From Tomitella gaofuii (GTDB lineage Bacteria > Actinomycetota > Actinomycetes > Mycobacteriales > Mycobacteriaceae), in NCBI RefSeq assembly GCF_014126825.1, contig NZ_CP059900.1:1116001-1180000 (forward strand): a stretch of 64,000 nt of DNA, written 5' to 3'. This document shows, one piece after another, positions 22,763 to 26,013 of this stretch. The first letter of the stretch is position 1; each line of letters opens with the position of its first letter. The position numbers and the translations under genes are program-made. The notes under the pieces were generated by a model. The model was not told the DNA's origin. It made no database searches and saw only the letters and a program-made list of their open reading frames with translations.

Positions 22763-23908
22763 TCAGCGCCGCGCCGTGGCCGCCTTGCGCGCCAGTTCCA
22801 TCGTTTTGCCGATCGCGGCGTCGACCGCGTCGAACTCGATGAGGAACGCGTCGTGCCCGTAGCGGCTCTCGTACTGCAGGAACTCGACGCATCCGGCCAG
22901 ATGCTCGGCGATCTCCGCCTGCAGCCGGAGGGGGTAGAGCCGGTCGGAGTCCCAGCCGGCGACGATAGTGGGGACCGTGCAGCCGGCCAACGCCGCGTGC
23001 ACGCCGCCGCGGTCGCGTCCCACATCGTGCCGATTGAGCGATTCGGTGAGGATCACGTAGCTTCCGGGGTCGAAGCGCCCGACGAACTTGTCCGCCTGGT
23101 ACTCCAGGTAGCTCTGCACCGCGTAGCGGCCGTCCTTGAGCGGGTCCTCGTCCAGCTGGCCCGCGTTGGCGAAGCGCTCGTCCAGTTCGAACTCGGTGCG
23201 GTAGGTCAGGTGGGCGAACCGCCGCGCCAGCTTGAGGCCGGTGTCGGGCCGCAGGCTGGTGCCGTAGAAGTCGCCGCCCTGCCAGTCCGGGTCGCGGCGG
23301 ATGGCCTCGAGCTGGGTGGTCTGCGTGCCGATCTGGTCCGCGGTGGCGCGCGCGCCCACGGCGAGGATCAGCGCGGAATCGACGCGTTCGGGGTAGGTGA
23401 CCTCCCACTCGAGCGCGCGGGCGCCGCCCATGGAGCCGCCCATGACGGAGGCGACCCGGTCGATGCCGAGTTCTTCGAGCGCGCGGGCCTCGGCGCGCAC
23501 CTGGTCGCGGATGGACAGGTACGGGAAGCGCGAGCCCCAGGGGCGCCCGTCCGGCGCGGGGGAGGACGGGCCTGTGCTGCCGTTGCAGCCGCCGAGCGAG
23601 TTGGTGGTGATCACGCACCACTCGTCGGTGTCGAGGGCCAGCCCGGGCCCGATGAGCCCGTTCCACCAGCCCGGCGACGCGTGCCGCTCGTCGGCGGGGC
23701 CGGCGGCGCGGGTGTCCCCGGTCAGCGCGTGCAACGCGAGCACCACATTGTCGCGCGCGGCGTTGAGCTCGCCCCACCGCTGGAACGCGATGGTGACCTG
23801 GGGGAGCCGGACGCCGCAGTCGAGGACCAGCGGTCCGATCTCGACGGCGCCCTGCTGCCCGTCCGGCGACGGAAGCGACGCCTGACGGGCAGGGTGGACC
23901 GTACTCAT
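22763..23908 (-). CDS. metX: Homoserine O-acetyltransferase MetX
   Basis: 381 aa alpha/beta-fold acyltransferase. Visible are the family motifs [11 protein letters not shown], the nucleophile elbow [12 protein letters not shown], and the catalytic Asp ([10 protein letters not shown]) and His (YGHDAFLIE). It acetylates homoserine with acetyl-CoA, giving the substrate for MetY. The ATG at 23908 is only 2 bp after the metY stop, so the genes are cotranscribed and probably coupled; control comes from the SAM-IV riboswitch upstream of metY. Confidence 0.95.
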
Positions 23909-23910
23909 TG

Positions 23911-25233
23911 TCAAGATGCTGCCGCCGCCGCGAAGCCGGTCTCCAGGTCCGCGAGGATGTCGTCGATGCCCTCGATGCCCACGCACAGGCGCACCTGGCC
24001 GGCGTAGACGCCCGCGGCCTCCCGCTCGACCTCGGAAAGCTGCTGGTGCGTCGTCGACCACGGGTGGACCACCAGCGAGCGGACGTCGCCCATGTTGGCC
24101 ACGTGGCTGTGCAGGGTGAGCGCGTCGATGAAGGCGCGCGCGGCCTTCTCGCCGCCGGCGATGTTGAAGGTGAGCACGGCGCCGGTGCCGCGGGGCAGCA
24201 GCTTCGTGCCGCGTTCGTGCCACTGCGACGACGGGAGGCCGGCGTAGGAGACCGACTCGACCTCGCCGCGCGCCTCGAGGAACTCGGCGACGCGCTGCGC
24301 GTTGGCCACGTGCCGTTCCACGCGCAGGCTCAGCGTCTCCAGGCCCTGCGCGGTGAGGAATGCGTTGAACGGCGAGGGGGCGTTGCCCATGTCGCGGAGC
24401 AGCTGCACGCGCGCCTTGAGCGCGAACGCGGGCGCGCCGAGGTCCGCGTAGACGACGCCGTGGTAGCTCTCGTCCGGCTCGGTGAACCCGGGGAACCGGG
24501 GCGTGCCGTCGGACTGCTTGACGGTCCAGTCGAAGTTGCCGCCGTCGACGAGGACGCCGTTGATCGTCGTCCCGTGCCCGCCGAGGTACTTGGTGGCCGA
24601 GTGCACGATCACGTTGGCGCCGTGCTCGAGCGGGTTGAGCAAGTAGGGGGTGGCGATCGTGTTGTCGACGATCAGCGGGACGCCGGCCTCCTGCGCCACG
24701 CCGGAGATGCCGGGCAGGTCGAGGACGTCGCCGCGCGGGTTGCCGATGGTCTCGCCGAACAGTGCCTTGGTGTTGGGCTTGACGGCGGCGCGCCACTGCG
24801 CGATGTCGTCGGGGTCGTCGACGAAGCTCACGTCCACGCCGATCTTGCGCAGCGTGTAGTGGAACAGGTTGAACGTGCCGCCGTAGATGTGCGGGCTGGA
24901 CACGATGTGGTCGCCGGCGCCGGCGATGTTGAGCAGCGCGTACATCGTGGCGGACTGGCCGGAGGACAACAGCAGTGCCGCGACGCCGCCCTCGAGCGCG
25001 GCGATGCGCTGCTCGACCGCGTCGACGGTGGGGTTCATGATGCGCGTGTAGATGTTGCCGGGCTCGGCCAGCGAGAACAGTGCCTCGGCGTGGTCGGTGC
25101 TGTCGAATTGGTACGACGTGGTCTGGTAGATCGGCAGCGCCGTCGCCTTGGTCGTCGGGTCCGGGGTGTGGCCGGCGTGGACCTGTTTGGTCTCGAACGA
25201 CCAGTTCGCGGTGGGATCGGTGTTCTCTGTCAT
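23911..25233 (-). CDS. metY: O-acetylhomoserine sulfhydrylase MetY (PLP enzyme)
   Basis: 440 aa of the Cys/Met metabolism PLP family. Motifs are [32 protein letters not shown], the PLP-binding lysine in [12 protein letters not shown], and [16 protein letters not shown]-type C-terminal segments (here [17 protein letters not shown]). It makes homocysteine from O-acetylhomoserine and sulfide. The start is the ATG at 25233 ([21 protein letters not shown]), which agrees with mycobacterial homologues. The frame is open further upstream through the leader, but that part is Arg/Pro-rich and not protein-like. First gene of metYX. Confidence 0.95.
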
Positions 25234-25378
25234 CGATGTGCTCCAGGGGCTGGTCGCCGCGCGCCCCGGTGGGCGTGCGCGGCGGAGGGCGGATGGCTCC
25301 GGCCGACCCGGGGCGCGTGCCCGCGCGGTGCGCTCCGTGGTCCGGTGGTGCTGTGGTCCGGCGGCGCGCGGTGCCCCT

Positions 25379-25400
25379 GCGGAAGACGGACGCCTTCCGC
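25379..25400 (-). promoter_or_regulatory. Hairpin in the metY leader
   Basis: GCGGAAG and CTTCCGC form a perfect 7-bp stem with an 8-nt loop. It lies between the Cys mini-ORF and metY, where an attenuator or anti-attenuator stem would be expected. No U tract follows, so the role is inferred from position only. Confidence 0.3.
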
Positions 25401-25520
25401 GACGGAGCGTGCGCGGGCTTCGCCGGCGAGGGCGGACGAAGCCGTCGGGCAGGGTGCATCCTGTCGCGGTGCCGGGCATGGCCCGGGACAGCGACGGCGA
25501 TGCGGGGATCGGCACTTCCG

Positions 25521-25538
25521 TCAGCTACGACAACACAT
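25521..25538 (-). CDS. Five-codon leader peptide MCCRS, candidate cysteine-sensing attenuator
   Basis: Downstream of the SAM-IV aptamer the transcript reads GGAGG, 7 nt, then ATG-TGT-TGT-CGT-AGC-TGA. The ideal ribosome binding site and two consecutive Cys codons directly after the start suggest that ribosome stalling at low Cys-tRNA controls metYX. Poly-cysteine short ORFs that act as cysteine-responsive attenuators are known in mycobacteria; here the function is inferred. Too short for a stable product. Confidence 0.55.
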
Positions 25539-25573
25539 GTGTGAACCTCCGTTGGGGCTTACCCCTTTTCTGT

Positions 25574-25593
25574 GGGCCCGCCCCAGCGGGCCC
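25574..25593 (-). terminator. Terminator-like hairpin at the end of the SAM-IV aptamer
   Basis: GGGCCCGC-TGGG-GCGGGCCC is a perfect 8-bp stem whose 5' arm overlaps the last conserved bases of the aptamer (AAGCGCGGG on the minus strand). Formation of one structure may exclude the other. The following sequence (ACAGAAAAGG) lacks a U run, so it may act with Rho or on translation instead. Confidence 0.4.
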
Positions 25594-25768
25594 GCGCTTG
25601 TCGTCCGCGACGGCCGCCTGCCCGGAGGGCGCCACGCCTGCGCGGGGGCAGGCGTGCCGTCGAGGGAAGGCGTCCACGGACGACCTGGTCATCACCCGGG
25701 GCACCCCACCGCGGTTGGAGGGTTGCCGGCCAGCAAGCCGGGGCTTGACGCTGACGCTCATGACCTGA
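25588..25768 (-). promoter_or_regulatory. SAM-IV riboswitch controlling metYX
   Basis: The minus-strand sequence from 25766 matches the known mycobacterial SAM-IV aptamer closely: P1 GGTCAT/ATGACC, the SAM core with AAGCCCCGGCTTGCTGGCC and GGCAACCCTCCAACCGCGG, then GGTGGGGTGCCCCGGG. A P5-like stem GTCGTCCG/CGGACGAC (25684-25677 with 25607-25600) closes a long variable arm, followed by the conserved ACAAGCGCGGG. SAM-IV binds S-adenosylmethionine and turns down methionine synthesis genes in actinobacteria. The position upstream of metY is the same as in M. tuberculosis. Confidence 0.92.
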
Positions 25769-25772
25769 CCCG

Positions 25773-25803
25773 ATCTTAGCCGCATACGCCCCCACGGTTT
25801 CAA
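25773..25803 (-). promoter_or_regulatory. Promoter of the SAM-IV/metYX transcript
   Basis: On the minus strand TTGAAA (25803-25798) and TAAGAT (25778-25773) are separated by 19 bp. The predicted start, about 7 nt downstream, falls at the first base of the aptamer P1 stem. Confidence 0.6.
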
Positions 25804-26013
25804 CTGGTCGGTCCCGGCGGGGGCCGCGGATCCGGAGCGGTTGTAGTCACCGGGACCTGAAGGGGTGCCGGGGGCGCGCTATCGAGTACGCTCGTACTGC
25901 AGAGCGCGAGGTGCGTGCGGCCGGGTGCCGCGACCGTGCCCGCCGTCCCGGTGCTCGATGCGGATTTCGTCACCACGTCACCACATCTGTGACCCGGGGT
26001 ACTAATCTGCACC

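Follow-up and report, generated by a model that had tools for sequence, protein, structure and literature searches.

In Salmonella, the leader of mgtA combines a Mg2+ riboswitch with a proline-rich leader peptide, mgtL, and thus handles two signals, with the involvement of Rho. The polycysteine leaderless short ORFs of Mycobacterium smegmatis are reportedly the subject of Canestrari 2020; their cysteine run is said to mask a downstream ribosome-binding site (RBS), which is unmasked by a ribosome slowed in the cysteine tract. Two NCBIfam families of cysteine-rich leader peptides, Ms4527A and Ms5788A, are presumably linked to these ORFs. Excerpts of PMC9031893 describe leaderless M. smegmatis ORFs with contiguous cysteine codons, which control the genes downstream of them by way of a ribosome speed that depends on cysteine. 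In actinobacterial cys and cbs operons, leader ORFs with cysteine codons come without a conserved terminator hairpin, and Rho was proposed to act at these cysteine leaders, a proposal called rather weak in the same source (PMC1262725, excerpts). Riboswitch leaders of Mycobacterium tuberculosis with upstream ORFs (uORFs) and Rho-dependent termination have also been described (PMC12810186 and PMC11260477, excerpts), and the SAM-I riboswitch on the met operon of Xanthomonas also senses uncharged initiator tRNA (PMC7270179, excerpts).

We analyzed a stretch of 64,000 nt of the Tomitella gaofuii genome, hereafter the window, in which the leader of metYX contains a SAM-IV riboswitch followed in series by a uORF with cysteine codons. 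This arrangement is a real and conserved device. Its features, listed in the direction of transcription, are as follows.

25773..25803, minus strand: candidate promoter, TTGAAA (25803-25798), 19 nt, TAAGAT (25778-25773), read from the sequence, directly 5' of the aptamer.
25592..25765, minus strand: SAM-IV aptamer with an enlarged P5 (25684-25600), from cmscan and the sequence of the P5 arms and of the CAAGCGCGG end.
25574..25593, minus strand: hairpin H1, GGGCCCGC-TGGG-GCGGGCCC, between the aptamer and the uORF, from an alignment of 26 leaders.
25554..25565, minus strand: small hairpin H2, GGGG-TAAG-CCCC, just 5' of the Shine-Dalgarno (SD) sequence of the uORF, from the sequence.
25546..25550, minus strand: SD sequence GGAGG of the mini-ORF, from the sequence, unchanged in three Tomitella genomes.
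25521..25538, minus strand: mini-ORF (the uORF), ATG TGT TGT CGT AGC TGA, encoding MCCRS*, 7 nt after GGAGG, from the sequence.
25234..25520, minus strand: spacer of 287 nt between the uORF stop and the metY start, with C > G, a candidate region for Rho loading or RBS masking.
25416..25443, minus strand: spacer hairpin GGCTTCG ... CGAAGCC, kept in three Tomitella genomes (by eye).
23911..25233, minus strand: metY, bifunctional O-acetylhomoserine/O-acetylserine (OAH/OAS) sulfhydrylase family (NCBIfam NF005872, 776.8 bits, cut-off 703).
22763..23908, minus strand: metX, homoserine O-acetyltransferase (NCBIfam NF047917, 562.6 bits for 22766-23869, cut-off 475).

Both genes start with ATG on the minus strand, metY at 25233 and metX at 23908, and the MetY protein of the window shares 98% identity with its T. 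cavernea counterpart. The initial annotation had read this leader as a SAM-IV aptamer followed by GGAGG, 7 nt, MCCRS* and metYX. The coordinates read from the sequence confirmed this layout, and cmscan matched RF00634 at 25765-25645 (minus strand) with 96.5 bits against a gathering threshold of 38, which places the aptamer in the family; it is the single match at that threshold within the window. The match stops early at 25645 because P5 is enlarged in this strain. Beyond that end, the conserved 3' motif of the aptamer, CAAGCGCGG, lies at 25600-25592, and P5 is closed by pairing of GTCGTCCG with CGGACGAC (25684-25677 with 25607-25600). The P5 loop of the window aptamer holds approximately 69 nt of extra sequence (25676-25608).

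Across Tomitella genomes, the TAAGAT box of the candidate promoter was found in 5 of 5 and the TTGAAA box in 3 of 5; a sigma-70 scan that allowed spacers of 16-18 nt did not report this candidate, whose spacer is 19 nt. In the alignment of 26 leaders, 94% of the H1 cells are paired and one pair is changed on both sides (U-A, U-G, C-G). When compared with shuffles, the covariation score of H1 was reached by 9 of 500, and its count of doubly changed pairs by 60 of 500. Inspection by eye revealed an H1-like hairpin in those short leaders that were inspected as well, and counterparts of H2 at the same place in relatives, in the form of GGG-loop-CCC or CAGG-GAAA-CCTG. The pattern GGAGG-N7-ATGTGYTGY occurs once in the whole 4.35-Mb genome. 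Furthermore, from the SD through the stop codon and 7 nt beyond, 37 of 37 nt are identical among three Tomitella genomes, while the remainder of the leader drifts.

Like mgtA, metYX thus carries an aptamer and a codon-biased, putatively amino-acid-sensing mini-ORF in the 5' leader of one operon, with a different ligand and a different amino acid. Both modules are known singly and pairs of riboswitch and leader peptide are known elsewhere, as at mgtA; the pairing of SAM and cysteine at metYX was not found among the literature matches listed (the best 11-20 of up to 1,204 per search), none of which dealt in its title or abstract opening with a cysteine uORF behind SAM-IV. The metY uORF may already be mentioned in Canestrari 2020, D'Halluin 2023 or Weinberg 2008. 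With typical SAM-IV riboswitches (RF00634) the leader shares the aptamer, but the first RBS downstream is that of the uORF instead of that of the metabolic gene, and SAM-IV occurs elsewhere without a two-cysteine uORF in 41 of 41 short metY leaders and in 79 of the 80 other copies examined. The polycysteine ORFs of M. smegmatis, which belong to the same bacterial order, are likewise short ORFs with contiguous cysteine codons that act on a downstream gene (PMC9031893 and PMC9094748, excerpts), and MCCRS* has such contiguous codons upstream of sulfur-metabolism genes, metYX. In contrast to these leaderless ORFs, the metY uORF is preceded by an SD of its own and follows a riboswitch; being SD-led, it would work like that family without being filed in it. 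The metE and ppe2 B12 riboswitches and the pe20 Mbox of M. tuberculosis offer the same combination of a riboswitch, a translational expression platform, a uORF and Rho-dependent termination, but the word cysteine is absent from the texts of PMC11260477 and PMC12810186. The Xanthomonas SAM-I riboswitch likewise belongs to a met operon and takes in a second signal linked to translation, except that the tRNA binds the expression platform directly (PMC7270179, excerpts). The cys and cbs leaders differ from the metYX uORF by cysteine codons located near the stop, by the operons they precede and by the lack of any mention of a riboswitch in the excerpts of PMC1262725.

We gathered 190 metY loci from several sets (80 named loci plus 30 and 80 others) and detected aptamers before metY with a covariance model based on 23 SAM-IV hits. 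A regular-expression finder over-matched (168 of 190), and all counts given here are those of the covariance model, which located SAM-IV at 143 of the 190 loci. Because the genome sets overlap, the 143 leaders collapsed to 131 distinct aptamer-to-metY spacers, 90 of them long (≥70 nt) and 41 short (<70 nt), a border chosen after the lengths were known. When SD-led ORFs were scored for cysteines within their first eight residues, 78 of the 90 long leaders contained a cysteine uORF, with at least two cysteines in 64 and one in 14. The other 12 consist of 2 leaders with an SD-led ORF devoid of cysteine and 10 without an SD-led ORF; by eye, at least L066, L059, L099 and L040 among them can be read as containing short ORFs with cysteine. 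None of the 41 short leaders, which offer no room for one, has a uORF with any cysteine.

Dinucleotide shuffling of the 90 long spacers over 100 rounds produced a mean of 0.17 two-cysteine uORFs (maximum of 2) compared to 51 in the real spacers. The scan started 14 nt into each real or shuffled spacer and early uORFs fell outside of it, hence 51 instead of 64; among multiple SD-led ORFs in one leader, that with the most cysteines was counted, for real and shuffled spacers equally. In the genus-coded set, 16 of the 33 genera with SAM-IV before metY have a two-cysteine uORF and 19 have at least one cysteine. The alignment of metY leaders across genera, which the initial annotation had proposed as a check, therefore came out in its favor, with the ORF, its SD and in-frame cysteine codons recurring in 19 of 33 genera. 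Any lone ORF of five codons is weak evidence, and an accidental ORF in a GC-rich leader or an annotation artefact would be an obvious explanation for a single locus. However, an accidental ORF is expected to fail to recur, and its presence in 78 of 90 long leaders, set against the shuffles and the other SAM-IV copies, contradicts chance, which we consider extremely improbable.

The uORF peptides read MCCRS, MCCSS and MCRDC in Tomitella; MCCCRR, MCCSPP, MCSCHE, MCRTCR and MMCCCCRR in Rhodococcus, Prescottella and Aldersonia; MCCCRSPFAFR and MCCCCCSSSR in Nocardia; MCMCP and MCCCP in some mycobacteria; and MCHCR and MCRCC in metagenome bins and one further genome. Cysteine stays while the neighboring residues change, which indicates that the codons are kept, and not one fixed RNA word. 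TGT or TGC triplets number 185 in frame versus 9 and 3 in the two other frames. The uORF is 5-6 codons long in 53 of 78 leaders, and 157 of the 184 cysteines counted lie at codons 2-4. Furthermore, 167 cysteine codons of the uORFs are TGT and 17 are TGC (91% TGT), compared with 5 TGT and 131 TGC (4% TGT) in the genes of the window, represented by 26 ORFs accepted as genes by length and base composition. A one-cysteine variant, MSRCR*, follows a GGAGG SD at L190, L193 and L196 (g20) and at L195, L197 and L198 (g24), while L189 (g20) encodes MCRCC*; a possible reading of these variants is a weaker sensor or ongoing decay.

Such a strong preference for UGU would also be expected if UGU mattered as a rare and slow codon and not as a cysteine sensor, the translated uORF relaying the SAM signal alone, and a relay from riboswitch to uORF has been described for the pe20 Mbox of M. 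tuberculosis (PMC12810186, excerpts). Yet other rare codons would be equally suitable, and it is cysteine that is kept among varying neighbors. Moreover, cysteine-rich uORFs also precede metY where SAM-IV is missing, in at least 6 of the 47 aptamer-less loci, as noticed by inspection. All four metY loci of g27 (L159, L163, L170 and L173) lack SAM-IV and have a leaderless-looking GTG ORF that ends with CICGCPGR*, CMCGCPAG*, CICGCPAS* or CICGCPAR*; an NCBIfam scan of one of these peptides returned no match. L044, from a Rhodococcus bin, has MRCCRR* before a metY without SAM-IV, and the peptide of L216 resembles the Ms4527A family of cysteine leaders with a score below the cut-off. No cysteine uORF was visible by eye in most other SAM-IV-less metY copies that were printed. 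Given g27, L044 and L216, cysteine uORFs are a recurrent arrangement upstream of metY, whether SAM-IV is present or not, and we consider a relay of SAM alone to be improbable.

A quick tree of 101 MetY proteins requires 7 changes to account for which aptamer-bearing leaders have the uORF and which lack it. All 5 Tomitella rows have the uORF, as does every aptamer-bearing row in the two clades containing the named Rhodococcus and Nocardia rows (20 and 17). Its distribution in the mycobacterial clade is patchy, and the leader of the Gordonia row (L109) is short. The design is probably ancient in Mycobacteriales and was probably lost where the spacer shortened; in g27, SAM-IV would have disappeared from metY with a cysteine uORF left in place.

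Many related genomes hold several SAM-IV copies. At least 150 SAM-IV places were listed in these genomes, 92 of the listed ones not at metY, and we fetched 80 of these 92. A single one of the 80 (L303) has a two-cysteine SD-led uORF behind the aptamer; this absence may in part reflect a lack of room, since many non-metY copies have a gene start close behind the aptamer. L303 (G025) has SAM-IV and an MCRCW... ORF 5' of a metX-like gene, with an apparent remnant of a metY start between them (by eye), as would be expected after loss of metY from metYX. The pattern GGAGG-N4-9-ATGTGYTGY was found at 63 places across 101 genomes. Sixteen of these places read ATGTGTTGT, and 15 of the 16 precede metY; at the sixteenth, in G116, the frame continues into a longer ORF. 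The rule of an SD-led ORF with two cysteines gave 0 of 18 Mbox loci, and the cysteine uORF as a general companion of riboswitches was thus rejected.

The CAAG motif is seen in 39 of the 43 short-leader rows, and in these 39 metY starts 47-79 nt after the start of that motif. The uORF start follows the same point by 45-64 nt in 49 of the 78 uORF leaders, by 23-30 nt in another 22 and by 70-110 nt in the other 7; in the window it does so by 62 nt. Therefore, the uORF mostly occupies the place that the metY start has in short leaders, or one closer to the aptamer, and the SAM-IV platform probably gates initiation at the uORF. Action of the platform on the RBS of the uORF is the simplest reading of this placement, and a probable one. 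A single conserved pairing partner for the uORF SD was not found, as the partners vary between leaders.

No terminator-like site was found in 25150-25900, and a transcription attenuator of the trp/his type was rejected on this ground. Of the dual leader envisioned by the initial annotation, the aptamer with its conserved cysteine mini-ORF holds and the hairpin attenuator with a terminator is not supported: besides the missing terminator, the hairpin at 25379-25400 is present in the window, but the two closest Tomitella genomes do not clearly preserve it, with a weaker form in G004 and a different one in G003 (by eye). In the hairpin at 25443-25416, a U-A pair is replaced by C-G in G003, and G004 has a G-U pair (by eye). 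Since it is kept with a compensatory change, a structural step may also be possible in Tomitella.

The C-G skew of the post-uORF stretch was positive in 66 of 66 leaders, those of the 78 uORF leaders with a stretch of at least 30 nt, with a mean of 0.32 and a value of 0.16 in the window. For comparison, the 140 nt preceding each of 26 window genes, a sample that includes coding stretches, gave -0.02 (s.d. 0.12); short spacers have C at 0.352 and G at 0.310. A C-rich spacer without an intrinsic terminator favors Rho or RBS masking over an attenuator of the trp type, and its fit to Rho loading is only suggestive. The same spacer would suit polarity of the opposite sign, in which ribosomes stalled at the cysteine codons leave transcription uncoupled from translation and thereby favor Rho-dependent termination, so that low cysteine lowers metYX and spares sulfide. 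However, the M. smegmatis precedent reportedly runs the other way, and a MetY of a family named bifunctional OAH/OAS sulfhydrylase could itself make cysteine, which leaves this opposite sign unlikely.

Pairing of the uORF with the whole post-uORF region gave no signal (mean z of approximately 0, 0 of 78 below -2). The second way in which the spacer could act is a translational attenuation in which the cysteine run pairs with the RBS region of metY and a slowed ribosome frees it, SAM-IV acting separately. In its favor, the predicted duplex of the uORF with its own metY start region averaged -11.9, compared to -10.1 with start regions of short leaders and -9.9 with shuffled ones. However, start regions of other uORF leaders pair nearly as well (-11.5), and the own pairing beat the mean of its own shuffles in 52 of 78 leaders; pairing with the metY start is weak and barely exceeds that with the regions of other uORF leaders. 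Masking the uORF was predicted to open the metY start region with a mean gain of 0.68 kcal/mol, against -0.05 for the control (paired test in the 68 of 78 leaders with control footprints, p = 0.006, the leaders not being independent). This small mean covers gains above 1 kcal/mol in 21 of 78 leaders, with large ones at L126 and L138 (g21), L158 (g25) and some Nocardia loci, and gains of at most 0.3 kcal/mol in the four Tomitella rows shown. These predictions lend modest overall support to the idea that the uORF directly masks the metY start, and good support in a few lineages, the Tomitella rows shown not being among them. As the principal mechanism, translational attenuation seems to us rather doubtful, albeit less so than an effect of the opposite sign.

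We consider it likely that the leader has two inputs, with SAM gating initiation at the uORF, charged tRNA-Cys setting the dwell time of ribosomes on it, and occupancy of the uORF deciding the expression of metYX. This reading builds on what was observed of the uORF leader: its parts, their conservation and placement, its codon bias and its specificity for metY. The SAM-IV aptamer and its expression platform would control the access of ribosomes to the first SD 3' of the aptamer, that of the uORF, which SAM would presumably shut. On the tandem rare UGU codons, the dwell time would depend on charged tRNA-Cys, and a shortage of cysteine would be expected to stall ribosomes there. Occupancy of the uORF would thus be the product of SAM-gated initiation and cysteine-set dwell. 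It would limit Rho-dependent termination in the C-rich spacer and thereby, as a presumed last step, allow expression of metY; in some lineages, it may also prevent pairing of the uORF with the metY start region. With 287 nt between the uORF and metY in the window, this link is the weakest step. Under the sign that we assume, expression of metYX is expected to peak at low levels of both SAM and cysteine. Cysteine is a sensible input because MetY belongs to the bifunctional OAH/OAS sulfhydrylase family, and as such an enzyme plausibly makes both homocysteine and cysteine, low cysteine should raise metY. More tentatively, and with slightly more doubt than belief, we propose that two end products are combined into one readout through the occupancy of a five-codon ORF, the target of the SAM-IV platform having switched from the gene to the uORF.

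Such a leader would be a device of natural origin that reads two signals where the syntheses of methionine and cysteine branch. It comes with built-in natural controls, namely the short metY leaders, the other SAM-IV copies and metY without SAM-IV, and makes the balance of sulfur between methionine and cysteine in actinobacteria accessible to reporter tests at the RNA level. It also warns that a riboswitch can in fact act on five-codon ORFs, which are below the usual annotation length.

Three SAM-IV copies away from metY, at L266 (G092), L286 (G125) and L296 (G015), are followed by a different and longer leader peptide with cysteine near its end. The L296 peptide matches NCBIfam NF042934 with 32.8 bits (cut-off 27), the L286 peptide ends with ...TRRRHVDMMRVCSAACRGRVAH* and precedes a gene that resembles an ABC substrate-binding gene (by eye), and the L266 peptide, MATTFYAVRRFTIDYGRLRTTCS*, has no NCBIfam match. 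At the Mbox loci L341, L342, L344, L352, L356, L357 and L358 of relatives, we observed SD-led uORFs that often have an acidic or serine-containing start followed by spaced prolines, such as MSISDSPYP, MKPGDSPYP, MPDGDHPPS and MTTVDDPPS. These proline-spaced uORFs are reminiscent of the enterobacterial MgtL leader and, by analogy, might possibly be a second Mg2+ sensor behind the riboswitch.
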